41,178 nucleotides of DNA from Candidatus Thermoplasmatota archaeon (GTDB lineage Archaea; Thermoplasmatota; Thermoplasmata; RBG-16-68-12; JAGMCJ01). Shown here piece after piece: positions 7,911 to 27,705 of this stretch. A model generated the notes under the pieces. The model saw only the letters and a list, made by a program, of their open reading frames with translations. It had not been told where the DNA came from and made no database searches. Where the stretch lies: the NCBI GenBank assembly GCA_022848865.1, contig JAJISE010000015.1, positions 1 through 41,178 on the forward strand. The letters run 5' to 3'. Within the stretch, counting starts at the first letter, position 1; the number at the start of each line of letters is the position of its first letter. The position numbers and the translations under genes were made by a program.

Positions 7911-9825
7911 ATGACGAGAAGAGAGATTGCGGTTGCGATAGGTTTGTTTGCAGCCCTTGTGACCCTGATGGCTCTGATCCACATTGAGACGTCAGCATCT
8001 GCTGATGGAGTCAGAAGCACGCGCGGCGAAGCGGACAACTCATATATGGACACGGCGACGTACATCGGTTTGGACCAGTGCGCCCTTTGCCACAACAGTT
8101 CCGCCTACGCCTTCAAATACGACACCTGGCAGGGCTCTCTGCACAGTAAGTCGCTGCAGGACCCTAGCACCGAGACAATCATCCCAACGATTTGGACTGG
8201 AGCCCTGAACCTGACCGAGGACGGCGTCTGGGGCAATATCACGCTGCACGAGGTCCGATACTTACCACGTTGACCTGGGAAGCGGCCATAACTACACGGT
8301 CTGGAAGGTCATGGGGGTCGAATGGAGGCAGCGCTACGTTACGGAAATCGGCAACAGCAGGTATACCCTCCCGCTCCAATGGAACGTTGTGACGGCGGAA
8401 TGGGTGCCTTACGACTTGGGCAACTGGTTCGATACGCCCGGCATTCCGAAGACGCCTGCCTATGAACATTCGTGGGACAGGCAGTGCGCAGGCTGCCATA
8501 CGACCGGTACGACGATTGCGTACGTCGGTGCGGAGTGGGTGGCGAATTACTCGGAGACGGCTGTTGGATGCGTGGCGTGCCACGGACCTAGTGGCGATCA
8601 CTCCGAGGATCCCGATTTCATATGGAGGTCAGCCGACTCCCGAATCTGCGGACAATGTCACGGCAGAGGTGCCAGCATGGCCACCGAGGGTGGCATGTCG
8701 ATCGTATGGCCTTGGGGTGCTGACGGCAAGTACCACCCGGGAGACGACATCACAGACTACCTCGACAGGGTTGACCCTATCAACGATCCTGACGCATTCT
8801 GGCCAAACAACATGTCCAGAATACACCTTCAACAGTACATCGATTGAGCGGGTTCGGCCCATGCGAACGCCCTGACAACTATAACGACGCTGCCGTTCGG
8901 AGAGGACGCGTGCCTGGAGTGTCACTCCGCGGACTACTGGCTCGCCGAGAAGCATGGAGGCCCCCTGCCGACAAAGGAAACTGCCCTGTGGAGTATCGAA
9001 TGCGCGAGATGCCACAACCCTCATGGGAATCCAGCAAACGACAAGATGCTCTGGAAGTCTGAAGACGAGACCTGCGAGCAGTGCCACAATTCAGAGAATG
9101 CGGGTCCGGGCGACACGCCGCATCATCCGAACACTGAACTAATCGAGGGCAATATCAACGTCACGGGGCTGGACGGCAGCCCTTGGATGAACGGAGACGT
9201 CGGGTGCACTGACTGCCACATGGTTCTGGTTGCCACAAGCGCAGTTCTGGGCGATATACCGACCCATACCTTCGGCTTCGCTAATCCACAGGAGACCATC
9301 GACCACGGCATGCCCAACGGGTGCACGTCTTACTGTCATGACGGAGTGAGCGGTTCCCCGAAGACGGAACAGAAAGCAGTGAACCTAATCGACGAATGGA
9401 TGGCGAACTACACCGCCAGAGAGGCGGATGTCGATACCGTGATAGAGCAGGCCAGGAACGCGCTGATTGCTGCGGAGGGTCTGGGCTTCAATGAGGAAGA
9501 AATAGCCGGGGCACAAGCCGCGTTTGACGATGCCAACTTCTCGTACGAGTACGTTCTGTCAGACCGTTCCGGGGGAGTGCACAACAATCCTTTCCAGATG
9601 GCCATCCTCGACTACGCTGAGGCGACCGCTCAAAGCGTGATTGACGACCTGACGCCAGTCACGACCGATGGAGAAGAAGCCCCGCTGGACATGATGTGGA
9701 TCTACCTTGCCCTAGCGGTGATAATCATCGTTGTGGCCATCATCGCGGTAGTGGCAGCCTCGAGGCGAAGAGGAGCACCTCCTGAAGAGCCTTACGAGGA
9801 AGAGGAGCCGCCAACAATCGAGTAA
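7911..9825 (+). pseudogene. Multiheme c-type cytochrome broken by one frameshift and one in-frame TGA
   Basis: Three segments together encode one exported cytochrome of about 638 residues. The first (from ATG 7911) runs to a frameshift at 8255-8256; dropping one C there joins LHEV to DTYHVDLG and continues the protein. The second runs to an in-frame TGA at 8845-8847, after which the same frame continues as AGSAHAN. Heme sites across all segments are CALCH, CAGCH, CVACH, CGQCH, CLECH, CARCH, CEQCH, CTDCH and a CTSYCH variant. A helical GVHN domain and a C-terminal anchor helix with a Pro/Glu tail end the protein. The rest of the sequence is well preserved, so recent decay or sequencing error are both possible. 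Confidence 0.8.
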
Positions 9826-12837: not shown

Positions 12838-15567
12838 TCAGAGGACTATCCAGGTGTCCACTGATGTCGAGTGCATCCAGTAGCCGTATCCAGTGACCAT
12901 CAAGTCTGAGCCTGCAGGTGATATGTCCCGCAGGAGATGTGGCGTGGCGGCAGGGTCAAAGGCCTCGGCCTCCGACACATCTGTCACAGACATCACGTTC
13001 TGTATGGTGTAAACGGTGCTGAAGGACGGGAATCCGATAAGGTTCCATCCTTTCTTCAGATCGATATTGGTGGATGTCGGAACCAGACCGGCAACCACGA
13101 AGTCGTCCGGTACTGGCGTGTACAGCCAGAATCCCATGGTCCGATCGATGGTCCCCAGGTCATTGATGTTCTGTCCTGCGTCGTGGCTCTTCCAATGGTC
13201 GGCCTGATCGGCCGCATCGTAGTAGACAGCTCTTCCCGAGGCGACCGTCTGCAGGACCGTTCCCGCAGAAGTGTCCATCGGGGCAAGTGGGAAGGAGACA
13301 AGATTCCATCCGGCCGAAAGGGGCCTGACGAACTTGCCAGCGACTTCTGAGGACTGTGTAACTTCCTCGCCATCATCTGCCCAGACATGGAAGAAGTACG
13401 TGTTCGGGTCACCGTCGCCACATCCCATGCATGCCCAGGAATATGTCGCCGCTCCGGTTGCCGGCTCGCTGCCGACATAGCTCTGAGGGCCACCCAGAGT
13501 TGGTGATGTGTAGATGTCGTACTCCACGACATCGTTGAAGCCTCCGCCATCATCGGCGGAACCAACCCACTCCAGTGTCACGTCCGAAGAACCGCCACTG
13601 AGGTACGCTCCCGTGAGCAGAGGTGGCTCTGGCGGGAAATTGGGTGTTCCGATTCTGAAGAGTCCAGTCTCGTCACAGGACTGCTGGCCGTTCGAGTCTC
13701 GGGCACACACCCTGACCTTGCAGTCGCTTGACGAGACCGCAGGAACAGACCAGTAGTGGGCTTCATCGTTAACATTTCCTGAAGCGACAGGGTTCCACGT
13801 GAATCCGGAATCGGTGCTGTATTCGATATCGACTCCGTCCACTGCGATCTCGACGTCGTGAGCGGACCACTCAATCGTGTACTCGGTCTCACGGATGACG
13901 AGGCTCCCAGCGGTAGGCCGTGTGACCTGTACTAATGGCGGCGCAACTCCATCCAGCCAGTAGACGGTGTTCTCCATCACGGCTTCGGCGTTCGCGTCTG
14001 AGGGATATGTGTCGGTCCCTTCGAAGTAGTCAAATGAGATGTAAACCACCCTCGAGTCCGCATCGTGTGTCGCTCGCAGGCCGGCAGTGTTAGTGGTTCC
14101 AGTATAGACCAGGATCTGATCGGCACCCATGCCTGGAGAGATGCGACTAGGAGAAGAGTCGAATACGTCGAGAGCGGCTAACCCGTTGGTTATCGGATCG
14201 GCCAGAATCCCGTCCGCAGTGGTCTGAGGAACACTGTCCGAGACGAAACTCGCATGAAGATTGGTCAGCATCCAACTGCTCCAGCCTCCGCCTTGGGCAT
14301 CCTGACCGATGTCCTCACCGGTGATGAACAGGCTTCCTCCTGCTCCGAGGTACAGCTCCAGATTGGTCCTGTCAGTCAGGGAGAGAGTGGTCGTTGCCTC
14401 ACCTGTGTACCACACTAGGGCGCCGTACTTCACCATGTCACCCATGCTCGGCATTGTCCTGAGGTTCTGATTGCCGTTGTCGCCGATTTCGAGTGTATCC
14501 CATAGGTCGTATGGGATTCCCTTCTTCGCCATTACATCCTCGAATCTCTCGAACCCCTCGTCCATCGTGTCCGTATTGTCTCCATTGACCAGCAAGACAG
14601 TGGGCTCGACGAAGTCGAGTGTCTCAGCCTGGAGCACAGGCCCGTTGAAGAAGTCCTTATCATAAGCGACATGATACCACATGTTCCTGTTGTCGGTCTG
14701 AACGAATACAGCCACTCCGAGGTTCCTCTTATCGGCTGTCACGTGGCTATCGGGTTCTGTGCCGTTCCAGGGACCGACCTGGAAGGTCTTGTAGTAATCA
14801 ACCGAGTCCCCCATGTTGAAACCCGGAGGGAGGGACTCCTCGTTCAGGACTTTTCGCACTATCCTGTCGTACACCCTCTTGTGTCCTGCCGCGTTCTCAA
14901 CCGTATTGCCATCCCTGTGGTAGTTGTGGTTCTGATAGACCATGAACCTGACCTTGAGGTTGGATTCGGTAATCGGATCGGTCGCCGTAATCCGAGCTTT
15001 CACGTAGCCCGTGTTTCCCGTGATGTTCCCTGACAGTTCTATGGTGAGGTTGCTCATCTCGGAGGGCATCAGCTCATCCTCAATCAATCCTCTGTCGTTG
15101 TTGTAGTTACCGTACCTGGAGCCCGCGCCGCCGATATCCCAAAGCTCGGCTCCGTTCGGTGAGGGATCAGTGCTGTCACCCGTGTATGGACCTCCGCCAT
15201 CGATTATCACGGTCGGGAAGTAGTAGCCGCCACCGGCATAGAAACCCGGACGAGTTGCAGTGTCCGTCACGAAGAACTCGTCGGAGCCTGATGTGTGGTA
15301 GACCAGAACGACAAGGTTCTCGTGTCCGAACTCGCGTTCCAGCCTCTTGATCGTGTGTCCCTGGGAAACGCAGGGAGGACACCAGTCTGCCGTGAACTTC
15401 TCCAGCAGAACCTTCCTGGGCGTCGATCCGCCTCTGCTTCCTATCGCCGTTTCGGTAGTCTCCTCCGAACCAGACGATTCTGAGACATAGCTGAACCCGG
15501 CGAATGCCGAGCTGACAAATACCGCGGTCAGAATCATTGCCCACATATACGTGAATCGTGTCTTCAT
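12838..15567 (-). CDS. Large secreted protein with N-terminal WCPPC thioredoxin-like domain
   Basis: The 909-residue protein has a signal peptide (residues about 8-26). A thioredoxin-like domain of Omp28/TlpA type follows, with FTADWCPPC at about residues 58-66. Next come a middle region with a GPWNGTEPDSH stretch, and a ThuA/GATase-like segment (VEPTVLLVNGDNTD to SGLFITGED-type motifs, about 320-540). Ig/fibronectin-like domains and two GWNLVSFPL / GWNLIGFP modules close the C-terminus. There is no C-terminal membrane anchor, so it is probably released or bound to partners. WCPPC is typical of thioredoxins that reduce apocytochrome cysteines (ResA/CcmG), which fits the cytochromes nearby, but Omp28-type proteins share similar sites. 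A GGAGGAGG Shine-Dalgarno supports the start. Confidence 0.8.
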   Translation of the reverse strand: MKTRFTYMWAMILTAVFVSSAFAGFSYVSESSGSEETTETAIGSRGGSTPRKVLLEKFTADWCPPCVSQGHTIKRLEREFGHENLVVLVYHTSGSDEFFVTDTATRPGFYAGGGYYFPTVIIDGGGPYTGDSTDPSPNGAELWDIGGAGSRYGNYNNDRGLIEDELMPSEMSNLTIELSGNITGNTGYVKARITATDPITESNLKVRFMVYQNHNYHRDGNTVENAAGHKRVYDRIVRKVLNEESLPPGFNMGDSVDYYKTFQVGPWNGTEPDSHVTADKRNLGVAVFVQTDNRNMWYHVAYDKDFFNGPVLQAETLDFVEPTVLLVNGDNTDTMDEGFERFEDVMAKKGIPYDLWDTLEIGDNGNQNLRTMPSMGDMVKYGALVWYTGEATTTLSLTDRTNLELYLGAGGSLFITGEDIGQDAQGGGWSSWMLTNLHASFVSDSVPQTTADGILADPITNGLAALDVFDSSPSRISPGMGADQILVYTGTTNTAGLRATHDADSRVVYISFDYFEGTDTYPSDANAEAVMENTVYWLDGVAPPLVQVTRPTAGSLVIRETEYTIEWSAHDVEIAVDGVDIEYSTDSGFTWNPVASGNVNDEAHYWSVPAVSSSDCKVRVCARDSNGQQSCDETGLFRIGTPNFPPEPPLLTGAYLSGGSSDVTLEWVGSADDGGGFNDVVEYDIYTSPTLGGPQSYVGSEPATGAATYSWACMGCGDGDPNTYFFHVWADDGEEVTQSSEVAGKFVRPLSAGWNLVSFPLAPMDTSAGTVLQTVASGRAVYYDAADQADHWKSHDAGQNINDLGTIDRTMGFWLYTPVPDDFVVAGLVPTSTNIDLKKGWNLIGFPSFSTVYTIQNVMSVTDVSEAEAFDPAATPHLLRDISPAGSDLMVTGYGYWMHSTSVDTWIVL

Positions 15568-16299: not shown

Positions 16300-16575
16300 A
16301 TGAGACCCAGGAAAGTCAAGATCAGGATAACGAGGATCCTCGAGGGCGGTGAATGTCCAGGAGGTCACACCGTGGGCGAGGAGTTCGTCTACCCAGATGA
16401 CAGAGGCAAGATATGCGCCAGCGCGATGAACACTATGTTCCCCGCGGTCCGGGTGCTGCAATTCGGCGGCTCCTTCCCGTGGGAAGAGGATCCAGACGTG
16501 GCCGTCCTCTGCTGTCCGGACGCCAAGAACCCGGTCGTCTTCGAGCTTAAGAGAGAGAATCGGACCGGTGACTAG
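16300..16575 (+). CDS. TIGR04076-like small protein
   Basis: The 91-residue soluble protein has a basic beta strand at the start (KVKIRITRI), a GGECPGGHTVGEEF motif at residues 16-29 and a later LCCPDAKNPVVFEL motif. The two cysteine motifs separated by about 50 residues match the TIGR04076 family of unknown function, often found in anaerobes. The start at 16300 is preceded by GGTGATGAG. It follows the rubrerythrin-like gene by 55 nt. Its stop overlaps the stop of the convergent regulator gene by 4 nt. Function unknown. Confidence 0.65.
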   Translation: MRPRKVKIRITRILEGGECPGGHTVGEEFVYPDDRGKICASAMNTMFPAVRVLQFGGSFPWEEDPDVAVLCCPDAKNPVVFELKRENRTGD

Positions 16576-17675
16576 AAGTCCACGTCCAGATCCAGGAGCT
16601 GCTTGACGAACGGGCCGAAGACCAGGTCCTTTATCGTGATCATCCGCTTGATGCTGTACAGCCGGATCAGGGGCATGTCCGCGATCATCTCGTTCTCCTT
16701 CAGGTATCGGATCAGGGCGGAGTTCTCGACCTTGAAGTCCTCGTATGTCTTGTAGATCGAGAGAGTGAAGTTCTCGAACCTCTTGGCGGCCAGGAACATC
16801 ACGGAGTCGGTGTCGATATAGCTCATGTCGATGGTCCCGCTGTTAAAGGGCGTCCTCGGACTGTACTTCGTGTGGCCCAGGCAGAGTATCTCGAACCCGA
16901 GCTTGTTCAGGTTCGGGATGGTGATCGTGCTGATCAGTCCCCTCTTCTCCAGCCTCCTGCGGATGTTGGATATGGTGTGCTTGGACAGGCCCGTCTTCTC
17001 GGCAATGGTCCCGTCCCTTGCATCGGGATAGCTCACGAGAGCGTAGAACACCATCTTCTCTCTCGTCTTCAGAGTGGCGGGGTCGCCCTTCACGAACTCC
17101 TCCCTGCTCTCCGCATCTTCATCGTCTATGCCGAAGTCCCTGGCCAGTAGTCTCGAGTAGTCGAAGAACCTGACTATGTCGCTCGTCTCCAGAGGGAAGA
17201 CCATCTGCGTCGGGAATGTCGCTTCCAGCAATCCGAGCTCCGCGAACAGCTGCGTCCTGATGTCGCTGATCTTCTCGATGTTCGTGTAGTTCTTGGAAAA
17301 GCTCAGCGAGAACCCATAGTTCGTCTCACCGACGGAATAGAAGAGCTCGTCATAGATCTCGATCCTCTCCCTCGCTCTCTCGACCCTGGCCTCCGCAGAG
17401 ACCGCCGGGTTGAACTCCGCATACGTCACGCCGAGCATCTCACAACCGAGGTTCTGGAGATAAGGGATCCTCTTTCTCGAGAAGTATCCCTCCTTCGCCA
17501 GCCGGTGCTTTATCGTGGTCACCGTGGAGTGCTTCATCCCGAGGATGTCGCTGAGCTCTCGGTCCTTCATGTCCGTGTAACGAACGAGGCCGTGCAGCAC
17601 CCGCTTCTCGTTATCTGAGAGATGACCTCTTCTCACGGACCGCAGAAGGGGGCGAATCGACAAAAAGGTTTTCAT
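16572..17675 (-). CDS. Transcriptional regulator with two winged-helix domains
   Basis: The 367-residue protein is a duplication. One winged helix-turn-helix near residues 19-75 (LSDNEKRVLHGLVRY..ELSDILGMKHSTVTTIKHRL) and a second near 205-262 (LKTREKMVFYALVSY..TIAEKTGLSKHTISNIRRRL) are each followed by a similar alpha/beta effector region (NLGCEMLGVTYAEF and NKLGFEILCLGHTKY). The fold resembles Lrp/MarR-type archaeal regulators, with two DNA-binding heads in one chain. It is divergently placed to the kor-hdr cluster, with 289 nt between them, making it a candidate local regulator of that cluster or of itself. The effector is unknown. Confidence 0.8.
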   Translation of the reverse strand: MKTFLSIRPLLRSVRRGHLSDNEKRVLHGLVRYTDMKDRELSDILGMKHSTVTTIKHRLAKEGYFSRKRIPYLQNLGCEMLGVTYAEFNPAVSAEARVERARERIEIYDELFYSVGETNYGFSLSFSKNYTNIEKISDIRTQLFAELGLLEATFPTQMVFPLETSDIVRFFDYSRLLARDFGIDDEDAESREEFVKGDPATLKTREKMVFYALVSYPDARDGTIAEKTGLSKHTISNIRRRLEKRGLISTITIPNLNKLGFEILCLGHTKYSPRTPFNSGTIDMSYIDTDSVMFLAAKRFENFTLSIYKTYEDFKVENSALIRYLKENEMIADMPLIRLYSIKRMITIKDLVFGPFVKQLLDLDVDF

Positions 17676-17964: not shown

Positions 17965-18228
17965 TTGAAGTACTGGCGCAGACCGCTTGACAAAGACGAG
18001 ATCAAGACACCGAAGGGGCACATATACGTGATCCCGGACAGGTGCAAGGGATGTGGATTCTGCATAGAGTTCTGTCCGAAGGGCGTCCTCGAAGAGTCCA
18101 AGGAGATCAACAAGAAGGGGTATCATCTGCCCAAGATCGCGGATGGCAAGGAGGATGACTGCATGAACTGCAATTTTTGCATGCTCATCTGCCCTGAGTT
18201 CGCGATATACACGGAGGAAGGGAAATGA
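17965..18228 (+). CDS. korD: 2-oxoacid:ferredoxin oxidoreductase, delta (ferredoxin) subunit
   Basis: The 87-residue two-cluster ferredoxin has C27-x-x-C30-x-x-C33-x-x-x-C37-P and C66-x-x-C69-x-x-C72-x-x-x-C76-P, two complete [4Fe-4S] motifs. It is the electron-exit subunit of the four-subunit enzyme encoded with the next three genes. I prefer the TTG at 17965 because GGAGGT at 17951-17956 is correctly spaced from it; a TTG at 17923 would add 14 basic residues. The stop overlaps the next start (ATGA). First gene of the kor-hdr operon. Confidence 0.88.
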   Translation: MKYWRRPLDKDEIKTPKGHIYVIPDRCKGCGFCIEFCPKGVLEESKEINKKGYHLPKIADGKEDDCMNCNFCMLICPEFAIYTEEGK

Positions 18229-19361
18229 AAGCAGTGCTCACGGGAAGCCATTTCATGCTGGGCGATATCGCGTGTGCGGAAGGTGCTCTGGCGGCTGGCT
18301 GCAATTTCTTCGGAGGATATCCGATCACACCCGCGACCGAGACCGCCGAAAGGATGGCCCTGCGCCTCCCGCAAGTTGGCGGACACTACATCCAGATGGA
18401 GGACGAGATAGCAAGCCTCGCGGCTGTTCTGGGTGCCTCGTGTGCGGGTGCGAAAGCGATGACGGCGACGTCCGGTCCCGGATTCAGTCTGATGCAGGAG
18501 AACATCGGGCTCGGGATAGTGACGGAGACCCCGTGCGTGATCGTCAATGTCCAGAGGGGAGGACCATCAACGGGACTGCCCACCCTGGCGGGACAGGCCG
18601 ACATGATGCAGGCGAAGTGGGGCTCCCACGGAGACTACGAGGCGATCGCCTATGTTCCCAACTCGTGCCAGGAGATGTTCGACTTCACGATCAAGGCCTT
18701 CAACACGGCAGAGAAGTACCGCCAGCCTGTGTTCGTCATGGCGGACGAGATAATCGGCCACATGACCGAGAGGGTCGTGATCCCTGGACCGAAGAAGATA
18801 AAGCTCGTATCTCGAAAGAGGCCAAAAGGCAAGAAGAACTACCTTCCATTCAAACCGGACAAGGACCTCATCCCGCCGATGGCACTTGCGGGAGAGGGCT
18901 ATGGCATACACATCACCGGGCTCACCCACGATGCCCGCGGGTATCCCGTGATCGATGAGGAGACCCAGCACGAGATGGTCACCCGCCTGATCGAGAAGAT
19001 CAGAAGGCACGCACCCAAGATATGGGAGTTCGAGGAAGTCGAGACGGAGGATGCGGATATCGTCGTCGTTTCCTACGGTGCGGCATCCAGATCGGCTGGG
19101 AGGGCGGTCAACATCGCGAGGAAGGAAGGGATAAAGGCCGGCCTCATGCGCCTGATCACCGCCTGGCCGTTTCCCGAGAAGCGGATAAAGGAGCTTGCGG
19201 AGAGTGCGAAGGCGTTCGTGGTCCCGGAGATAAACATGGGACAAATCTCCCGAGAGGTTGAGAGGTTCGCCTCCGGAAGGGTCCTCAGCGTTACTCACGC
19301 GGGCGGAGGAATGCTATCACCGGAAGCGGTTCTACAGAAGATCAAGGAGGTGGCGAAGTGA
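18225..19361 (+). CDS. korA: 2-oxoacid:ferredoxin oxidoreductase, alpha subunit
   Basis: The 378-residue subunit has the pyrimidine-binding-type N-terminal domain (GGYPITPATETAERMA near residues 27-42 and GPGFSLMQENIGL near 85-97). The C-terminal transketolase-like domain ends VPEINMGQISREVERF. With the beta subunit it binds thiamine diphosphate and oxidatively decarboxylates a 2-oxoacid to an acyl-CoA. Sequence style and subunit order (D-A-B-C) fit 2-oxoglutarate oxidoreductase, but branched-chain or other 2-oxoacids remain possible. It overlaps korD by 4 nt and korB by 4 nt, so translation is coupled. Confidence 0.92.
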   Translation: MKAVLTGSHFMLGDIACAEGALAAGCNFFGGYPITPATETAERMALRLPQVGGHYIQMEDEIASLAAVLGASCAGAKAMTATSGPGFSLMQENIGLGIVTETPCVIVNVQRGGPSTGLPTLAGQADMMQAKWGSHGDYEAIAYVPNSCQEMFDFTIKAFNTAEKYRQPVFVMADEIIGHMTERVVIPGPKKIKLVSRKRPKGKKNYLPFKPDKDLIPPMALAGEGYGIHITGLTHDARGYPVIDEETQHEMVTRLIEKIRRHAPKIWEFEEVETEDADIVVVSYGAASRSAGRAVNIARKEGIKAGLMRLITAWPFPEKRIKELAESAKAFVVPEINMGQISREVERFASGRVLSVTHAGGGMLSPEAVLQKIKEVAK

Positions 19362-20230
19362 GTGCAAAAGGAGCAGGGAACGAGGGCAAGATCGAGACCG
19401 TTGAGGGGCACCCGCTGGATCACATCCTGAGACAGGACCGGCTCCCCCATATATGGTGTCCAGGCTGCGGGCTCGGGTCCGCGATGACCTGCTTTGCCCA
19501 GGCGATCGAGAGGGTTGACATTCCTCTCAAGAAGCAGGTGCTGTTGTCCGGAATCGGATGCACTGGAAGGATAGCGGGGTACGTCAATGTCGATTCCTAC
19601 CACACGACCCACGGGAGGGCGATACCGTTCGCAACGGGGCTCAAGATCGCCAATCCGGAGCTCTGTGTGACCGTCTTCAGCGGGGACGGCGACCTCTTCG
19701 CCATAGGCGGGAACCACTTCCTGCACGCGGCGAGGAGAAATGTCGACATCAACGTCATCTGCGTCAACAACTTCAACTACGGGATGACCGGCGGTCAGCA
19801 GGGACCGACGACGCCGGTGGAAGCGAAGACCACGACGACCCGCTACGGGAGCTTCGAGCATCCCTTCAATCTTCCATATCTGGCGGCTGCGATCGGCGCC
19901 GTCTATGTGTCCCGATGGACGACCCTGCACTGTCGTCATCTCGAGAAGTCCATGGAGAAGGCCCTCCAGAAGAAGGGCTTCACGTTCATAGAGATCGTAT
20001 CCCCGTGCCCCACCGGCTTTGGCAGGCCGAACAAGCTCGGGGAAGGACTTGAGGAGCTGAGGTACTACAGAGAGAAATCCGTGATAAAGAACGACGCCTC
20101 CTGGGATGAGATGGACCTCCACATGCGCGGGGAGGAGCCCATAGTGGTGGGCGATTTCCTGGACACGGAGAAACCGACCTACCTCGAGCTGGAGGAACAG
20201 ATGCTCAGAAAAAGGGGGTTCATGAAGTGA
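19358..20230 (+). CDS. korB: 2-oxoacid:ferredoxin oxidoreductase, beta (thiamine diphosphate) subunit
   Basis: The 290-residue subunit has WCPGCGLGSAM near residue 32 and a GIGCTGR motif, cysteine positions used for the [4Fe-4S] cluster. It carries the thiamine diphosphate/Mg motif GDGDLFAIGGNHF near 109-121, followed by NNFNYGMTGGQQGPT. The YGMTGGQ stretch is characteristic of the 2-oxoglutarate/2-oxoacid branch. It starts with GTG overlapping the korA stop (GTGA), with AAGGAGGTG 5 nt upstream. It forms the catalytic core with KorA. Confidence 0.93.
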   Translation: MSAKGAGNEGKIETVEGHPLDHILRQDRLPHIWCPGCGLGSAMTCFAQAIERVDIPLKKQVLLSGIGCTGRIAGYVNVDSYHTTHGRAIPFATGLKIANPELCVTVFSGDGDLFAIGGNHFLHAARRNVDINVICVNNFNYGMTGGQQGPTTPVEAKTTTTRYGSFEHPFNLPYLAAAIGAVYVSRWTTLHCRHLEKSMEKALQKKGFTFIEIVSPCPTGFGRPNKLGEGLEELRYYREKSVIKNDASWDEMDLHMRGEEPIVVGDFLDTEKPTYLELEEQMLRKRGFMK

Positions 20231-20775
20231 GCCGAAAGGAGGTTCGTATGGGTGGCTTCGGCGGCCAGGGAATAATCCTAGCGGGCTTCATTCTGGGGAA
20301 GGCGGTCGCGATCTATGAGAAGAAGGAGGCCGTCCAGACGCAGTCCTACGGTCCAGAGGCCCGAGGCGGGTCCTGCCTCGCGGATGTCATCATCAGCGAC
20401 GAGGACATCAACTACCCGATGGGGACGGTCCCCGACATCCTCGTCCTGATGTCACAGGAAGCTTTCAATGAGAACCATGACAAGATAGCCGACGATGCCA
20501 TCTTGATCGTGGACGAGGACCTCGTGGATGCGTCGGCGTTCAGGAAGAAGAACAAGGTCTTCAAGGCTCCCGCGACGAGGATCGCGGAAGAACTGGGGAA
20601 GAAGATCGTAGCCAACATCGTGATGCTCGGGTTCCTGGCAGCCGTGGGGGATGTGGTCAGCCACGATGCCATGAAGAAAGCCATACTCGACTCTGTCCCG
20701 AAGGGGACGGAAGACCTCAACCTCGAAGCCTTTGAGAAGGGATACGAACACGGCAAGAATTCGGTGGCGAACTAG
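20227..20775 (+). CDS. korC: 2-oxoacid:ferredoxin oxidoreductase, gamma subunit
   Basis: The 182-residue subunit has the gamma-domain signature GGFGGQGIILAGFILGKA near residues 9-26 and SYGPEARGGSCLADVIIS near 41-58. This domain binds the CoA-side of the reaction in fused pyruvate oxidoreductases. It starts with GTG overlapping the korB stop. The stop codon directly abuts the TTG start of the giant HdrA gene, so the oxidoreductase and the Hdr proteins belong to one transcription unit. This is the key context argument for their functional link. Confidence 0.92.
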   Translation: MSRKEVRMGGFGGQGIILAGFILGKAVAIYEKKEAVQTQSYGPEARGGSCLADVIISDEDINYPMGTVPDILVLMSQEAFNENHDKIADDAILIVDEDLVDASAFRKKNKVFKAPATRIAEELGKKIVANIVMLGFLAAVGDVVSHDAMKKAILDSVPKGTEDLNLEAFEKGYEHGKNSVAN

Positions 20776-23766
20776 TTGGACAAGGGCGTCCTGGTGATAG
20801 GAGGAGGAATAGCCGGCATTCAGAGCGCGCTCGACACGGCAGATGCCGGTCGCAAGGCGGTCATTCTCGAAAGCTCTCCCTTCATCGGGGGTCGCATGGC
20901 CCAGCTGGACAAGACCTTCCCGACGAACGACTGCTCCATGTGCATACTGTCTCCCAAGCTCGTTGAGGCGGGGAGGCATCCGAACATAGAGCTCGTCACG
21001 AATGCGGACCTGATCGCACTGGAGGGAGAGAAGGGCAACTTCACGGCGACTATACGCAAGAAGCCCAGATACGTGGACGAGGAGAAGTGCGTCGCCTGCG
21101 GCATCTGTGCGGAGAAGTGTCCCGTCAAGCTTCCGAGCGAGTACGACGCTTCCACTTCCGAGAGGAAGGCGATATACCGAGCGTATCCTCAGTCCGTTCC
21201 GTCCACTTACGTCATAGACAAGGACAACTGCATATACTTCAAGACCGGCAAGTGCAGGGCCTGCGAGAAGTTCTGCGAGGCCAAGGCCATCGATTTCGAT
21301 CAGAGCGAGGAGGAGGTCAGGATAGACGTCGCCTCCGTCATAATCGCATCCGGAGCGGACGTGTTCGATCCCTCCGAAATACACGAGTACGGCTACGGCG
21401 TGCTTCCGAACGTCATCACGAGCCTCGAGTTCGAGAGGCTTCTCAGCGCATCAGGGCCGACGCAGGGGAAGGTCGTGAGACCGTCCGACGGGAAGGAACC
21501 TGAGAACATCGCGTTCATACAGTGCGTCGGCTCCCGGTCCACGGTGTACGGAGGAGAGTACTGCTCCTCCGTGTGCTGCATGTATGCGCTCAAGGAAGCT
21601 ATCGTTGCGAAGGAGCACTCCGATTCCATAGACATCCAGATCTTCTCGATCGACTTCAGGGCGTTCGGGAAGCAGTTCGAGGACTACCGCATCAGGGCCG
21701 AGGAGGAGCACGGCATAAGGATCTGGAGAGGGAACAGAGTCTCTGCACTGGAACCTGCCCTTCCCGGGGACGGAGTCCTCGTCGTGTACATCGACGGCGA
21801 CGAGATCGAGCTGAAGGAGTTCGACCTTGTTGTGCTATCTGTTGGTCTGAGACCCCCAGAAGGGGCGGAAGAGCTCAGCAAGATCACCGGCGTTGAACTC
21901 AACGAGTACGGATTCTACAAGACCCCTCCGAATGAGAGCTTCCAGACGACGAGACCCGGCGTCTACGTCGTTGGGACTATCTCTGAGCCAAAGGACATTC
22001 CGGACACGGTCTGTCAATCATCTGCCGCATCATTGATCGCTCCCGTGTTCGAAGAAGTCGAAGTTGCCGATGACGAGACGGGAGAAGAGGTTCTGGCGGA
22101 AGAGGAGGAGCCCAGGACTGGCGTCTTCATCTGCCACTGCGGCATCAACATCGGCGGTGTCGTCGATGTCCCCTCCGTCGTCGAGCACGTGAGGACGCTT
22201 CCGAACGTCGCCTACGCCGAGGACAACCTGTATACCTGCTCCGTCACGACACAGGAGAAGATCAAGGAGGCCATCAAGGAGCACGACCTGAATCGAATAG
22301 TGGTCGCTTCCTGCTCGCCCCGTTCGTACGAGAAGCTCTTCCAGGAGACGATAAGGGAGGCTGGATTGAATCCATATCTCTTCGAGATGGCGAACATACG
22401 CGAACACTGTTCCTGGGTTCACTCCAAGGAGCCCGAGAGGGCTACCGAGAAGGCGAAAGGGCTCGTCGCGGCCGCAGTCGCGAAGGCGAGGCTGCTGGAA
22501 CCCCTGCACAAGGTGTCCGTTCCAGTTAACAAGACCGCCCTCGTCATCGGAGGCGGATTGAGCGGGATGACAGCCGCATTGTCATTGGCGGAGCACGGGA
22601 TAGGAGCGCACCTCGTGGAGAAGACGAAGGAGCTTGGCGGGAATCTGAGACGAGTTGCACACACGCTAGATGGCGAGGACCCGCAGGAGCTCCTCAAGGG
22701 CATGATACGGGAAGTGAGGGATAATGACAGCATTACGCTTCATATGGGAACGGAAGTTGAGTCCGTCGACGGATTCATAGGCAACTTCCACACCACGCTG
22801 GCGAACGGGGACGAGTTCGACCACGGCGTCGTGATCGTCGCCACAGGCGCTGTGGAGTACAAGCCCACGGAATATCTGTACGGGAAGAGCGATCGCGTCA
22901 TGACTCAGCTCGAGCTCGAGGAGAAGATGTCGCACAAGGACTTCAAGCCCGAGAGCATGGTCATGATACAGTGCGTCGGCTCTCGTGACTCAGAGTACCA
23001 GAACTGCAGTCGCATCTGCTGTTCCACGTCAATCAAGAACGCGTTGCGGGTGAAGGAGAAGCACCCCGACATCAACGTGTACGTCCTGTACAAAGACATA
23101 CGGACGTACGGGTTCAAGGAGAAGTACTACCGAGAGGCTTCAAGGAAGGGAGTCGTGTTCATAAGGTACGACGACGAGAACCCTCCCGAGGTCACGAAGA
23201 AGAAGGGGAAGCCACGAGTCGTCGTCAAGGATGCAACGTTGGGAGAGGACGTCTTCCTGGAGCCGGATTACCTTGTGCTCAGCGCGGGGATACGCCCGAA
23301 TCCAGACAACGAGAACCTCTCCGAGACGCTCAAGGTCCCGCTGAGCGGGGACGGGTTCTTCCTGGAAGCCCACATGAAGCTCAGACCGCTCGAGTTCTCG
23401 ACGGACGGGGTCTACCTGTGCGGGTTCGCGCACTCCGCCAAACCTTCGGAGGAGAGCATAGCCCAGAGCAGAGGCGTTGCCGCGAAGGTCCTGGGCCTGT
23501 TCTCCAAGGACAGGATAGAGGTCGAACCCCTGATCGCCTACGTGAACGAATCGCAGTGCAGATGGTGTGGCAGGTGCGCTGATGTCTGCGTCTTCGGTGC
23601 GATCGATATCGTGGAGTCCGAGGGCGTCAAGTACGCCAAGATAAACGATGTTCTCTGCAAGGGTTGCGGTGCGTGCGTCGTGGCCTGCCCGACGGGCGCG
23701 ATGGACGTGCACGGGTTCACGAGCGGGCAGCTTGACAAGATCATAGAATGTCTGGAGTGGGAATAG
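20776..23766 (+). CDS. hdrA: Tandem-fused double HdrA flavoprotein
   Basis: The 996-residue protein joins two HdrA modules. Module 1 (about 1-440) starts directly at the FAD-binding GGGIAG (9-14). It has CSMC (53-56) in the GGRMAQLDKTFPT region and an inserted ferredoxin (C105/C108/C111/C115 and C152/C160/C163/C167), and lacks the N-terminal HdrA domain. Module 2 starts with that domain (FICHCGINIGG, about 450) and has a second FAD site (GGGLSG, about 592) of the ELGGNLR type without ferredoxin insertion. It ends with two [4Fe-4S] motifs (CRWCGRCADVC, CKGCGACVVAC). HdrA is the flavin-based bifurcating subunit of Hdr complexes. The TTG start immediately follows the korC stop. Confidence 0.9.
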   Translation: MDKGVLVIGGGIAGIQSALDTADAGRKAVILESSPFIGGRMAQLDKTFPTNDCSMCILSPKLVEAGRHPNIELVTNADLIALEGEKGNFTATIRKKPRYVDEEKCVACGICAEKCPVKLPSEYDASTSERKAIYRAYPQSVPSTYVIDKDNCIYFKTGKCRACEKFCEAKAIDFDQSEEEVRIDVASVIIASGADVFDPSEIHEYGYGVLPNVITSLEFERLLSASGPTQGKVVRPSDGKEPENIAFIQCVGSRSTVYGGEYCSSVCCMYALKEAIVAKEHSDSIDIQIFSIDFRAFGKQFEDYRIRAEEEHGIRIWRGNRVSALEPALPGDGVLVVYIDGDEIELKEFDLVVLSVGLRPPEGAEELSKITGVELNEYGFYKTPPNESFQTTRPGVYVVGTISEPKDIPDTVCQSSAASLIAPVFEEVEVADDETGEEVLAEEEEPRTGVFICHCGINIGGVVDVPSVVEHVRTLPNVAYAEDNLYTCSVTTQEKIKEAIKEHDLNRIVVASCSPRSYEKLFQETIREAGLNPYLFEMANIREHCSWVHSKEPERATEKAKGLVAAAVAKARLLEPLHKVSVPVNKTALVIGGGLSGMTAALSLAEHGIGAHLVEKTKELGGNLRRVAHTLDGEDPQELLKGMIREVRDNDSITLHMGTEVESVDGFIGNFHTTLANGDEFDHGVVIVATGAVEYKPTEYLYGKSDRVMTQLELEEKMSHKDFKPESMVMIQCVGSRDSEYQNCSRICCSTSIKNALRVKEKHPDINVYVLYKDIRTYGFKEKYYREASRKGVVFIRYDDENPPEVTKKKGKPRVVVKDATLGEDVFLEPDYLVLSAGIRPNPDNENLSETLKVPLSGDGFFLEAHMKLRPLEFSTDGVYLCGFAHSAKPSEESIAQSRGVAAKVLGLFSKDRIEVEPLIAYVNESQCRWCGRCADVCVFGAIDIVESEGVKYAKINDVLCKGCGACVVACPTGAMDVHGFTSGQLDKIIECLEWE

Positions 23767-24186
23767 ATGAAGGCCCCGTTCGAACCGAAGATCCTCGCGT
23801 TCTGCTGCAACTGGTGCGCCTACTCCGGAGCCGACCTAGCGGGAACATCCAGACTGCAGTACCCGCCCAATGTCAAGATAGTGCGGGTGATGTGTTCGGG
23901 TCGCGTCGACCCCGGTCACATACTCCGGGCCTTCGAGACTGGCGTCGACGGCATCCTCGTCGCGGGCTGTCACCCGGGCGACTGCCACTACATATCGGGG
24001 AACGAGAGGGCGGAGGAAAGAATCGAGACCGCCAAGGCGGTGGCGGAGATCATCGGCATCGGCGAGGACCGCATACGACTGGAGTGGATATCAGCGTCGG
24101 AGGGCTTGAGATTCGCCGAGGTCATCGAGGACTTCATCAAGGAGATCAGAGTCAAAGGGCCCAGCCCGGCGGGAGGCGACGCGTGA
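23767..24186 (+). CDS. mvhD: MvhD-like [2Fe-2S] electron-transfer subunit
   Basis: The 139-residue protein has the MvhD signature CCNWCAYSGADLAG (C13/C14/C17), RVMCSGRVD near residue 44 and GCHPGDCHY near 67-75. MvhD/FlpD carries a [2Fe-2S] cluster and links HdrA to a hydrogenase or formate dehydrogenase in methanogens. Here neither partner enzyme is encoded nearby, so the electron source must be another protein, plausibly ferredoxin or the Kor enzyme (inference). The ATG abuts the upstream stop, and the stop overlaps the next start (TGATG). Confidence 0.9.
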   Translation: MKAPFEPKILAFCCNWCAYSGADLAGTSRLQYPPNVKIVRVMCSGRVDPGHILRAFETGVDGILVAGCHPGDCHYISGNERAEERIETAKAVAEIIGIGEDRIRLEWISASEGLRFAEVIEDFIKEIRVKGPSPAGGDA

Positions 24187-25298
24187 TGGAACTCGATGAG
24201 GCGGTGAGGGACACGAACGTCCAGATGTGCTATTCCTGCGGGAAGTGCACTCTCGCCTGTCCCCTTACTCACGACGATCACATCTACTCCCCGCGAAGGA
24301 TTGTGGAGACGATTCTCGCGCACGGAGAGGAAGGAATCAGTCCCGCCGAGATGTGGGAATGCCTCACGTGCAACGCCTGCTCCACGTACTGTCCGTCCGA
24401 TGTGAAATTTCCCGCCTTCGTGAGGGAGATCAGAGGCGAACTCGTGAAGGACGGTTCGTACGGTGAGTGCTCCCATGCGGGGATCCTTCATTCGTTGATG
24501 AGACTGATGGCAGGAGGCCAGGTGAAGCAGAAGAGGCTGGAATGGCTGGATGACTCGCTGGAGACGAGTCCGAGGAGCAATGTCCTCCTGTTCGTCGGCT
24601 GTGCGCCGTACTACGATGCCGTTCTTAGTGAGCACGGGAGCCATACTGAGACCACGAAGAGCGCCGTCAAGCTTCTCAACAGCATTGGCATCAAGCCGCG
24701 TCTCCTCAAGGACGAGGTGTGCTGCGGGCACGACATGCTCTGGACAGGGGAGACGGAGACGTTCGAGGACCTGGAAAGAATCAACACCGAGAGGATCAAC
24801 AAGTCGAAGGTGAAGAAGATCATCTTCACGTGCCCGGAGTGCTATGACACCTTCAAGGAGAACTACAAGGACCTGAGAGAGGACATCGAGCTGCACCACC
24901 TTGCTCAGTTCCTGGGCGATAGGATCGATGACCTCGAATTCAAGGAGAACGGCAAGAAGGTGACGTTCCAGGACTCGTGCAGACTGGGAAGGTTCCAGGG
25001 CATCTACGAGCCGCCGAGAGACCTCCTGCTCGCCGTTCCCGGCCTGGAACTCGTCGAGATGGAGGACAACAGGAAGAAATCGGTGTGCTGCGGGACCTCC
25101 TGCTGGATGAACTGCGACCAGGAATCCAAGAGAATACAGGTGGAGCGCCTGGAGGAGGCCTCGACGATCGCCGACATGATGATCACCGCTTGCCCCAAGT
25201 GCCTCATCCATTACAGATGCGCGATGGATGGGCAGAGCAAGCTCGACACAGACGTGAAGGACCTATTCGTGATGTTAGCTGAATCACTGGAGCCGTGA
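24186..25298 (+). CDS. HdrC-HdrB fusion (HdrD-like heterodisulfide reductase subunit)
   Basis: The 370-residue fusion has an N-terminal HdrC-like domain with two [4Fe-4S] motifs (C15/C18/C21/C25 and C59/C62/C65/C69). An HdrB-like part with two complete CCG domains follows: a single Cys near 139, CCG near 179 and CPEC near 215, then DSC near 264, CCGTSC near 300 and CPKC near 336. CCG cysteines bind the noncubane clusters that cleave the heterodisulfide. The order HdrC then HdrB is that of HdrD. The disulfide substrate in this organism is unknown. The ATG at 24186 overlaps the mvhD stop; a GTG at 24183 is an alternative. Confidence 0.9.
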   Translation: MELDEAVRDTNVQMCYSCGKCTLACPLTHDDHIYSPRRIVETILAHGEEGISPAEMWECLTCNACSTYCPSDVKFPAFVREIRGELVKDGSYGECSHAGILHSLMRLMAGGQVKQKRLEWLDDSLETSPRSNVLLFVGCAPYYDAVLSEHGSHTETTKSAVKLLNSIGIKPRLLKDEVCCGHDMLWTGETETFEDLERINTERINKSKVKKIIFTCPECYDTFKENYKDLREDIELHHLAQFLGDRIDDLEFKENGKKVTFQDSCRLGRFQGIYEPPRDLLLAVPGLELVEMEDNRKKSVCCGTSCWMNCDQESKRIQVERLEEASTIADMMITACPKCLIHYRCAMDGQSKLDTDVKDLFVMLAESLEP

Positions 25299-25302
25299 CG
25301 GG

Positions 25303-27705
25303 ATGGATGAAGAGGAAGAGATCAGGATTGGAGTGTACGTGTGCCACTGCGGGCTCAACATCGGAGCGACCGTTGACTGCGAAGAGGTCGCCGAGCACGC
25401 GAAGACCCTGGATGATGTGGTCTACACCGAGCACCAGATGTACACGTGCTCAGAGCCAGGACAGCAACAGATCAGGGACGACATAAAGGAGCACAGGCTC
25501 AACAGGGTCGTCGTTGCGTCATGCTCTCCCAAACTGCACGAGGAGACGTTCAGGAACGCGTGCGAAGAGGCGGGACTGAACAAGTACCTCCTCGAGATGG
25601 CGAACATCAGGGAGCACTGCAGCTGGGTCCATCTTCACGAGAAAGAGGGTGCGACGGACAAGGCGAAGGACCTCGTTGCGATGGCCGTCGCGAAGGCTCG
25701 CCTCCTGAGACCCCAGATAGAGAAGAAGGTCCCCGTGAAGAAGTCCGCGATGGTCATCGGCGGCGGAGTTGCGGGCATTCAGGCGGCCCTCGACCTCGGG
25801 GATTGCGGATACAAGGTCTACCTTGTGGAGAAGGAGGCCAGCATCGGCGGGAGGATGGCGCAGATAGACAAGACGTTCCCCACGATGGACTGCTCGATCT
25901 GCATACTGGCCCCGAAGATGTCAGAGGTCGGCCGGCATCCGAACGTGGAGGTGCTGACCAACGCGACCGTGAGACACATCGACGGCTACATCGGAAACTT
26001 CAGCGTCCTGATCTCGCAGAAGACCAGATACGTCACGGACGAGTGCACGGTGTGCGACGACTGCACCGACGTCTGTCCGGTCACAACACCGAATGAGTTC
26101 GATCTGGGCCTGACGACGAGAAAGGCGATCTACATACCATTCCCGCAGGCCATTCCGTCGAGCTTCATCGTCGATATGGACCTCTGCCTCAACGAGGCCA
26201 ATGTCAGGGCCTGCAACAAGTGCATCGAAGCCTGCGACAAGGAGTGCATAGACTTCGACATGGACCCGGAGAAGGAGATCCAGATCGAGGTCGGAACAAT
26301 CATAGTCGCAACTGGGATGAAAACCTTCGATCCCAGAGACCTGGAGGAGTATGGATACGGGAGATACACCGATGTCCTCACGACGCTGGAGTTCGAGAGG
26401 CTCATCAACGCGTCGGGACCCACGGAGGGTCACCTCATCCGACCCAGCGATGGAGAACAGCCGAAGAACGTGGCGTTCATTCAGTGCGTTGGATCGAGGA
26501 CCGAGGACAGGGGAAATCCTTACTGCAGTAACATCTGCTGCATGGAGACTATAAAGGACGCCCTTCTCATCAAGGAACACTGGCCCGAGATCGAGATAAC
26601 CGTGTTCTACATGGACATCAGAGCCTTTGGAAAAGGGTTCGAGGACCTATACAAGCGGGCCAGACAGGAGGGCGTCCGCTTCATTCGCGGTCTGCCCTTC
26701 GACATCAAGAAGAATCCGGATGGCACACTGAGGGTGAGAGGGGAGAACACAACGCTCCAGGAGATCTACGACTCCGACTTCGGGGTGGTCATCCTCTCAA
26801 TAGGCCTCGAGCCGCAGGACGACAGGGAGGACGTCCAGAGGCTGCTCAACATCTCGACTGACTCGAACGGGTTCTTCCTGGAGGCGCATCCCAAGCTCAA
26901 GCCCATCGACACGTCGACCGGAGGCGTCTTCCTCGCTGGAACCGCGGAGGCCCCCAAGGACATCAAGGAGAGCGTCACCCAGGCCTCGGCGGCAGCGGCA
27001 AGGGCCAACAGGCTCATGATACGCGGAGAGGTCACCGTCGAGGCCCTGACGCCCATAGTAGATGCCGAGCTGTGCACGGGCTGCGGGGCTTGTGAGAAGG
27101 TCTGTCCCTACGGCGCGATCACCGCTGACAAGGAGGCGAAGCTCGCTACCGTGGTTGAGGCGGCCTGCGCAGGGTGCGGAACCTGCGGGGCAGAATGCCC
27201 GACCGGAGCCATTACGATGAGGCACTTCACCGACGACCAGATCATGGCGCAGGTCGACCACGCGCTCGAGCGGGACCCGCAGGACAAGGTCCTGGTCTTC
27301 GCCTGCAACTGGTGTTCCTACGCCGGAGCGGACCTGGCGGGGGTGTCCAGAATGCAGTACCCGACGTCCTCGCGGGTGATCCGAACGATGTGCTCGGGCC
27401 GCGTCGCGGAGAAGTTCGTCATGCGGGCGTTCGAGAAGGGTGCGGCCGCTGTGCTGGTCTCCGGGTGTCATCTTCAGGACTGCCACTACATCAGCGCGAA
27501 CCAGCAGACCGTCAAGAGAGTGAAGCGGTGGAAGAAGAAGCTGGAGAGGAAGGGAGTGGACCCGGACAGGCTCCAGCTGGAATGGATATCTGCCGCGGAG
27601 GCCGACAGGTTCGCGTCGAAGATGAAAGAGATGGACGAGATCGTCTCTCAAGTGACCAAGAAGGACATCAGCAAGACGAAGAAGGCGCTGAAGGCGAAGG
27701 CCTAG
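25303..27705 (+). CDS. HdrA with C-terminal MvhD domain (QmoB-like architecture)
   Basis: The 800-residue protein has a full HdrA: the N-terminal domain with VCHCGLNIGA (C14/C16), FAD site GGGVAG (about 152) with GGRMAQIDKTFPT and CSIC, and an inserted ferredoxin with CTVCDDCTDVCP. The C-terminal [4Fe-4S] pair is CTGCGACEKVC and CAGCGTCGAEC (about 590-632). An MvhD domain (ACNWCSYAGAD about 667, GCHLQDCHY) and a Lys-rich tail end the chain. HdrA-MvhD fusion is the layout of QmoB in sulfate reducers, though similar fusions occur in methanogens and other archaea. It starts 4 nt after the HdrCB stop and is the last gene of the run. Confidence 0.9.
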   Translation: MDEEEEIRIGVYVCHCGLNIGATVDCEEVAEHAKTLDDVVYTEHQMYTCSEPGQQQIRDDIKEHRLNRVVVASCSPKLHEETFRNACEEAGLNKYLLEMANIREHCSWVHLHEKEGATDKAKDLVAMAVAKARLLRPQIEKKVPVKKSAMVIGGGVAGIQAALDLGDCGYKVYLVEKEASIGGRMAQIDKTFPTMDCSICILAPKMSEVGRHPNVEVLTNATVRHIDGYIGNFSVLISQKTRYVTDECTVCDDCTDVCPVTTPNEFDLGLTTRKAIYIPFPQAIPSSFIVDMDLCLNEANVRACNKCIEACDKECIDFDMDPEKEIQIEVGTIIVATGMKTFDPRDLEEYGYGRYTDVLTTLEFERLINASGPTEGHLIRPSDGEQPKNVAFIQCVGSRTEDRGNPYCSNICCMETIKDALLIKEHWPEIEITVFYMDIRAFGKGFEDLYKRARQEGVRFIRGLPFDIKKNPDGTLRVRGENTTLQEIYDSDFGVVILSIGLEPQDDREDVQRLLNISTDSNGFFLEAHPKLKPIDTSTGGVFLAGTAEAPKDIKESVTQASAAAARANRLMIRGEVTVEALTPIVDAELCTGCGACEKVCPYGAITADKEAKLATVVEAACAGCGTCGAECPTGAITMRHFTDDQIMAQVDHALERDPQDKVLVFACNWCSYAGADLAGVSRMQYPTSSRVIRTMCSGRVAEKFVMRAFEKGAAAVLVSGCHLQDCHYISANQQTVKRVKRWKKKLERKGVDPDRLQLEWISAAEADRFASKMKEMDEIVSQVTKKDISKTKKALKAKA

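Follow-up and report, generated by a model that had tools for sequence, protein, structure and literature searches.

The DNA examined here (the window) is a whole contig of 41,178 nucleotides (nt), JAJISE010000015.1 or C15, from the 2.03-Mb, 95.8% complete genome of a Thermoplasmata archaeon. Statements about the rest of this genome rest on family searches. Eight co-directional genes at 17965 to 27705 on the forward strand encode a 2-oxoacid oxidoreductase (Kor) followed by parts of heterodisulfide reductase (Hdr) and MvhD, with intergenic gaps of -4, -4, -4, 0, 0, -1, and +4 nt. The first is KorD (17965 to 18228), a 2x[4Fe-4S] ferredoxin subunit with two CxxCxxCxxxC motifs and an N-terminal MKYWRRPLD tail, whose TTG start codon is backed by relatives beginning MKxWRKPLD. 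It is followed by KorA (18225 to 19361), the 2-oxoacid:acceptor oxidoreductase alpha subunit with POR_N and PFOR_II domains (NF006412, 570 bits; cut-off, 411); KorB (19358 to 20230), the thiamine pyrophosphate (TPP)-binding beta subunit with a GDG...N motif and cysteines (TPP_enzyme_C, E 2e-32); and the gamma subunit KorC (20227 to 20775; NF006323, 251 bits; cut-off, 235). The Hdr part begins immediately 3' of the KorC stop, again with a TTG codon, with a double (type II) HdrA of 996 residues (20776 to 23766), three segments of which aligned to 5odc_A. MvhD (23767 to 24186), with six cysteines, matched HdrA2 in its MvhD portion (E 3.2e-53) as well as VhuD (E 2.1e-40). An HdrC-HdrB fusion resembling HdrD (HdrCB; 24186 to 25298; CCG, E 1.5e-26) has two [4Fe-4S] motifs and two complete CCG motifs, and an HdrA-MvhD fusion of type Ia/HdrA2, 800 residues long (25303 to 27705), scored 1236 bits against NF040770 (HdrA2; cut-off, 1100).

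Pfam and NCBIfam searches of the open reading frames (ORFs) of the window confirmed all the named domains. A first-pass annotation had thus been right in its description and coordinates of the cluster and in its count of three HdrA modules and two MvhD domains, and its claim that the eight genes form one unit was borne out by gaps of -4 to +4 nt and by the conserved kor-hdr adjacency described below. That number of modules, which it had set above that of the standard HdrABC-MvhADG complex, is not exceptional; double HdrA (type II) and HdrA-MvhD (type Ia/HdrA2) proteins have been published (PMC12054007, PMC9012536, PMC5296606). The scanned window ORFs yielded neither a hydrogenase nor a formate dehydrogenase gene.

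The features expected of Kor or 2-oxoglutarate oxidoreductase (OGOR) were all present, namely subunits A, B, C, and D, the TPP motif, and the Fe-S cysteines. The closest solved chain to KorB was an OGOR beta chain (8ys5_C), and the best NCBIfam match of KorD was the OGOR delta model, below its cut-off. In the motif GIGCTGR, an Arg takes the place of Lys49 of 5b48, as in the solved OGORs, but the OGOR-specific models were again below cut-off. The substrate would probably be 2-oxoglutarate.

In the double HdrA, the cofactor sites are divided between two complementary halves. The first half carries a flavin adenine dinucleotide (FAD) domain, a Cys197-type pair at 53/56, and an inserted ferredoxin. 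The second carries an N-terminal Fe-S domain (CHCG at 453) found in that half only, a FAD domain, and a C-terminal ferredoxin, and lacks both Cys197 and the inserted ferredoxin. The chain therefore holds two thioredoxin-reductase/FAD modules with complementary Cys197 and N-terminal domain, as in type II HdrA. The set that is spread over these halves occurs complete, in the form known from HdrABC-MvhADG, in the HdrA-MvhD fusion (FAD, Cys197, inserted and C-terminal ferredoxins, and E356/K409). E356 and K409 have been used as markers of bifurcation (PMC12054007), and residues matching them are kept in all three HdrA modules. Both CCG sets of the window HdrCB are complete, each followed by CxxC; the kor-linked HdrCB proteins of two families of relatives, f2 and f20, have just one of the two CCG-domain CxxC pairs.

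Since the genome holds paralogous HdrA genes, a chimeric misjoin between KorC and HdrA was conceivable. A paralogue on contig C6 shares 90% nt identity with the window copy over 925 nt. Exact stretches common to the window HdrA and the paralogue contigs reach 77 to 79 nt. The junction was, however, recovered in three congeneric genomes, in which the HdrA start adjoins KorC as in the window (nt identity 95, 97, and 90%, ungapped), and in one of the three a further contig runs from residue 66 of HdrA into the gene for HdrA-MvhD with 95% identity. An assembly chimera at this point is ruled out by these agreeing contigs, and the arrangement is therefore real and a feature of the genus.

The conservation of the arrangement was then assessed at the best-scoring loci, so that the counts apply to these loci and are no estimate of class-wide frequencies. 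Of the 30 best-scoring KorC loci drawn from 400 class genomes, 20 had HdrA directly downstream of KorC; they belong to families f1, f2, f3, f9, f17, f19, f20, f21, f25, and f26. The same was true of 16 of the 30 best KorB loci from 100 relatives, which added families f6, f10, and f18. As an internal control, the genome's four remaining Kor/Por/Ior loci were inspected in fetched stretches of 14 to 16 kb, and none had an Hdr neighbor. As an outside control, kor genes were sought in the flanks of 80 named double-HdrA loci and were found at one, from an uncultured Desulfobacterium. At that locus (L098), korDABC is divergent from an HdrCB-HdrAA-FdhA region, a bacterial parallel. On the KorB tree, the hdr-linked label required 6 changes compared with 13.5 for shuffles. 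A single origin of the link, in the form of one clade of linked KorB, was rejected on the same tree, and the link has therefore been gained several times or lost several times. The first-pass annotation had named a lack of conserved kor-hdr adjacency in relatives as one finding that would refute its proposal; the adjacency proved to be widely conserved in the class (20/30 KorC loci), so that this test did not refute it. The Kor-Hdr link is real and conserved across many families. The opposite view, that the genes are a chance or inherited neighborhood without a functional link, or an assembly artifact, could point to the exact stretches of up to 79 nt shared with HdrA paralogues. It is largely refuted by the shared junction in congeneric genomes, the synteny over many families, and the 6 label changes against 13.5 in shuffles, and was regarded as highly improbable.

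The Kor-Hdr operons of relatives form a modular series. In f1, f2, and f20 the order is KorDABC-HdrAA-MvhD-HdrCB-HdrA-MvhD, with the Kor genes of f20 partial or rearranged in the fetched stretches, and f3 has KorDABC-HdrA-MvhD only. In f6, KorDABC is accompanied by a fused HdrAA-MvhD, HdrCB, and two EtfA-/EtfB-like proteins; the latter were identified by eye directly after Kor-HdrAA-MvhD-HdrCB (L174, 13497 to 15304; L188, 6832 to 8600). Other families add an SdhB-SdhA pair that is fumarate-reductase/succinate-dehydrogenase-like. Families f9 and f18 have the series KorDABC-HdrA-MvhD-HdrC-HdrB-SdhB-SdhA or a permuted order, and the pair follows a KorD-KorA fusion, KorB, KorC, HdrA, MvhD, HdrC, and HdrB in f26. 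In f17, f21, and f25 the order is SdhBA-KorDABC-HdrAA-MvhD, in some cases with NuoF/NuoG-like genes further along. Such genes end the Kor-Hdr operon at L175 (15877 to 20000) and L177, and L175 also contains the start of a possible CooS-like gene. In f12, HdrAA-MvhD-MvhG-MvhA-HdrC-HdrB-SdhB-SdhA-KorDABC forms a single run, with divergent fumarase genes alongside in two genomes. The SdhA-like proteins fall under PF00890, and their nearest resemblance is to TfrA of thiol:fumarate reductase, with scores under the cut-off of that model; this SdhA-like form is lacking in the window's order, where only generic relatives were found. A distinct SdhA-like protein, about 550 residues long and extended by 90 residues at the N-terminus, was seen in about 20 Thermoplasmata genomes (L196, L229, L277, and similar loci), near SdhB, HdrC, HdrB, and often Kor. 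HdrA matches in four relatives (G051, G069, G091, and G098) read through an in-frame TGA, which could mark gene junctions or selenocysteine.

Within this series, the window HdrA-MvhD fell in an exclusively kor-linked HdrA-MvhD clade (f1, f2, f3, and f20; 30-row tree; SH-aLRT, 99), and in the window's clade no other HdrA is inherited with Kor as consistently. The families tied to this clade also have the KorD tail, with the consensus M-K/R-x-W-R-K/R-P-L-D or near variants. In hdr-linked KorD, the WRKPLD tail was located in the window (17965 to 18000) and at five other loci (L140, L141, L143, L199, and L207). Among the KorD proteins compared, it was absent from the unlinked KorD of f12 and from the KorD of SdhBA-type clusters. 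Judged from its conservation, the tail is a possible candidate for a docking peptide. The window double HdrA grouped with copies from hydrogenase-type superclusters and not with other kor-linked double HdrAs, and the nearest relative of the window HdrCB was the copy in the formate dehydrogenase cluster of the same genome.

The first-pass annotation had described the cluster as hydrogenase-free and had recommended a search for mvhAG or fdhAB elsewhere in the genome. The description holds for the cluster and fails for the genome, where both enzymes were found, each inside its own Hdr/MvhD cluster. Contig C51 (L036) carries MvhG and MvhA (VhuG/VhuA-like) with their own MvhD, double HdrA, HdrA, and HdrCB genes, and contig C4 (L190) carries a formate dehydrogenase alpha subunit (FdhA; TIGR01591, 906 bits; cut-off, 666) behind HdrA, MvhD, HdrCB, HdrA, and MvhD. 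The C4 cluster shares 71% nt identity with the MvhD-HdrCB-HdrA stretch of the window. Neither CofD nor the FrhB/FdhB C-terminal family was found in the genome, which makes F420 unlikely as a mid-potential partner. The alpha subunit of methyl-coenzyme M reductase (MCR; mcrA) was likewise not found in the 95.8% complete genome, and CoM-S-S-CoB is accordingly an unlikely acceptor.

The best explanation of these data, which we hold to be somewhat better than an even prospect, is that the cluster specifies a soluble unit for electron transfer between Kor and Hdr, with Kor at its low-potential end. KorABC would oxidize or form a 2-oxoacid, probably 2-oxoglutarate, and low-potential electrons would pass through KorD to or from a flavoprotein core of HdrA-MvhD and double HdrA. 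HdrCB would form the high-potential half and act on a disulfide or some other acceptor; MvhD would form the mid-potential half, with the C51 hydrogenase or the C4 formate dehydrogenase as its partner. Kor would then occupy the place of ferredoxin or Fwd/Fmd in the Hdr supercomplexes of methanogens; in the solved supercomplexes 7bkb and 9sw6, Fwd/Fmd is at the low-potential end (PMC12054007). In the confurcating direction, electrons from the 2-oxoacid and from a dithiol would be combined to give H2 or formate, and in the bifurcating direction, H2 or formate would drive both disulfide reduction and reductive 2-oxoacid synthesis. Counted in support of such a unit were the tight operon, the KorC-HdrA adjacency with its internal and outside controls, the KorD tail, the HdrA-MvhD clade, and the kept E356/K409-type residues, as well as the relatives with Kor, MvhGA, HdrAA-MvhD, and HdrC-HdrB in one operon and the genome's own MvhAG and FdhA as possible mid-potential partners.

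The 2-oxoglutarate/succinyl-CoA couple has a textbook potential of about -0.52 V. Because this couple is already at ferredoxin potential, Kor would gain nothing as a mid-potential donor and fits the low-potential end, a placement also supported by relatives that carry Kor and MvhGA in a single operon. For the same two reasons, the idea that Kor simply stands in for MvhAG or Fdh did not survive: Kor and MvhG(A) share an operon in several relatives, which rules out Kor as a general replacement for MvhAG. Most likely, Kor is an added module at the low-potential end and not a hydrogenase replacement. With assumed standard potentials, on which both of the following figures rest and which address feasibility only, the confurcating route, in which electrons from a 2-oxoacid and a dithiol form H2, would reach balance at about 1.4 mbar H2, and the bifurcating route, from H2 to fumarate together with reductive Kor, would stay favorable at pressures as low as about 1e-5 bar. 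The cluster might instead encode a plain 2-oxoacid:disulfide (or other acceptor) oxidoreductase, acting as a sink in fermentation by passing electrons from Kor via HdrA to HdrCB with no bifurcation. The lack of a mid-potential enzyme in the cluster and the improbability of an F420 route, given that searches of the genome turned up neither the CofD nor the FrhB family, are in keeping with this. Such an enzyme would, however, waste about 0.4 V, the bifurcation residues and two MvhD domains have been kept, and MvhGA is in the same operon in relatives; we consider it improbable.

Several observations weigh against a dedicated bifurcating or confurcating Kor-Hdr unit. No gene for a mid-potential partner was found in the kor-hdr cluster among the scanned ORFs, and the hydrogenase and formate dehydrogenase of the genome each have their own MvhD copies. 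As regards the high-potential acceptor, the failure to find mcrA counts in the same direction. The double HdrA and HdrCB appear to be paralogue swaps within the genus, so that not all Hdr parts share a long history with Kor. Lastly, the kor-hdr adjacency could mean pathway coupling through free ferredoxin, with Kor reducing a soluble ferredoxin that Hdr consumes by confurcation or ferredoxin:disulfide reduction, and no physical complex. HdrA2B2C2 of Methanosarcina acetivorans provides a model, catalyzing a disulfide reduction that depends on ferredoxin and F420H2 and involves no dedicated donor enzyme (PMC5296606), and the window HdrA-MvhD exceeds the HdrA2 model cut-off. Against this stand the conserved position of HdrA right after KorC, the confinement of the KorD tail to the linked clade, and the location of the genome's other 2-oxoacid oxidoreductases away from Hdr, and we rate pathway coupling alone as unlikely, though to be taken seriously.

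In the surroundings of the cluster, a TrmB-like winged-helix regulator (16572 to 17675, reverse strand; Pfam TrmB, E 8.5e-12) is divergent from kor. A divergent TrmB-like neighbor is also found beside kor in four other genomes of the genus (L179 to L182), and the protein is a possible regulator of the kor-hdr unit. Multiheme cytochrome c genes, with Cytochrom_C552 and C554 matches and paired CXXCH motifs, are located at 5838 to 7613 (reverse strand) and 9046 to 9825 (forward strand), and a 909-residue ORF at 12838 to 15567 (reverse strand) had no Pfam match. Promoter and terminator scans did no better than shuffles, and all Rfam families stayed below their gathering scores.

With HdrABC-MvhADG (5odc) and the Fdh/Fwd supercomplexes (7bkb and 9sw6), the predicted Kor-Hdr unit shares homologous HdrA, HdrC, HdrB, and MvhD, the same Fe-S and FAD motifs, solubility, and modular partners. 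In contrast to HdrABC-MvhADG, whose HdrA and HdrB features it has, the cluster encodes Kor and no MvhAG (present on C51 instead) or FdhAB, contains a double HdrA and an HdrA-MvhD, and has HdrC and HdrB fused, and the organism, in which MCR alpha was not found, does not match a methanogen using CoM-S-S-CoB as the acceptor. The HdrA2B2C2 enzyme of M. acetivorans (PMC5296606) likewise has an HdrA-MvhD fusion (1236 bits for the window protein against the cut-off of 1100) and needs no hydrogenase, whereas the window unit is tied to Kor, F420 is unlikely in the genome, and CoM-S-S-CoB is unexpected without mcrA. Fused complementary HdrA halves and a replaced partner enzyme are known from the type II double HdrA clusters of anaerobic methanotrophic archaea (ANME) and from MetFV-HdrABC-MvhD of Moorella (PMC9012536, PMC12054007), but the partner in the window is Kor, and the Cys197 half comes first, the reverse of the description in PMC9012536. 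The Ehe-type cluster of Culexarchaeia (PMC9723716) resembles the Kor-Hdr operons in mixing Hdr subunits with SdhA and other modules, but it is founded on a membrane hydrogenase with CdhA and GcvH, and the Kor-Hdr operons on Kor. In the reviews and surveys consulted, PMC12054007 included, the Hdr partners named are H2, formate, F420H2, NAD(P)H, and MetFV, and Kor is not described. No description of a Kor-Hdr complex was found in the open-access literature, and an earlier description elsewhere is possible.

The known Hdr bifurcating complexes exchange electrons with enzymes of H2, formate, F420, NADH, methylene-tetrahydrofolate, and formylmethanofuran. The conservation of a 2-oxoacid enzyme as the partner of an Hdr-based flavin bifurcating or confurcating complex suggests an undescribed link between carbon and energy metabolism, and the SdhBA-bearing operons of relatives offer a specific prediction of the coupled reactions. 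Tentatively, and at well below even confidence, a single Thermoplasmata Hdr complex may couple 2-oxoglutarate synthase/oxidoreductase at the low end to fumarate or disulfide reduction at the high end, with H2, formate, or NADH taking the middle position. If so, two neighboring reductive/oxidative steps of the tricarboxylic acid (TCA) cycle would be coupled by flavin-based bifurcation, and the window cluster would be a branch without SdhBA that uses HdrCB. Through a 2-oxoacid enzyme as a fixed partner of Hdr, the carbon of amino acids and of the TCA cycle would be connected directly to bifurcation, and the Kor-Hdr link could serve to drive 2-oxoglutarate synthesis or to dispose of fermentation electrons in a large uncultured archaeal group.

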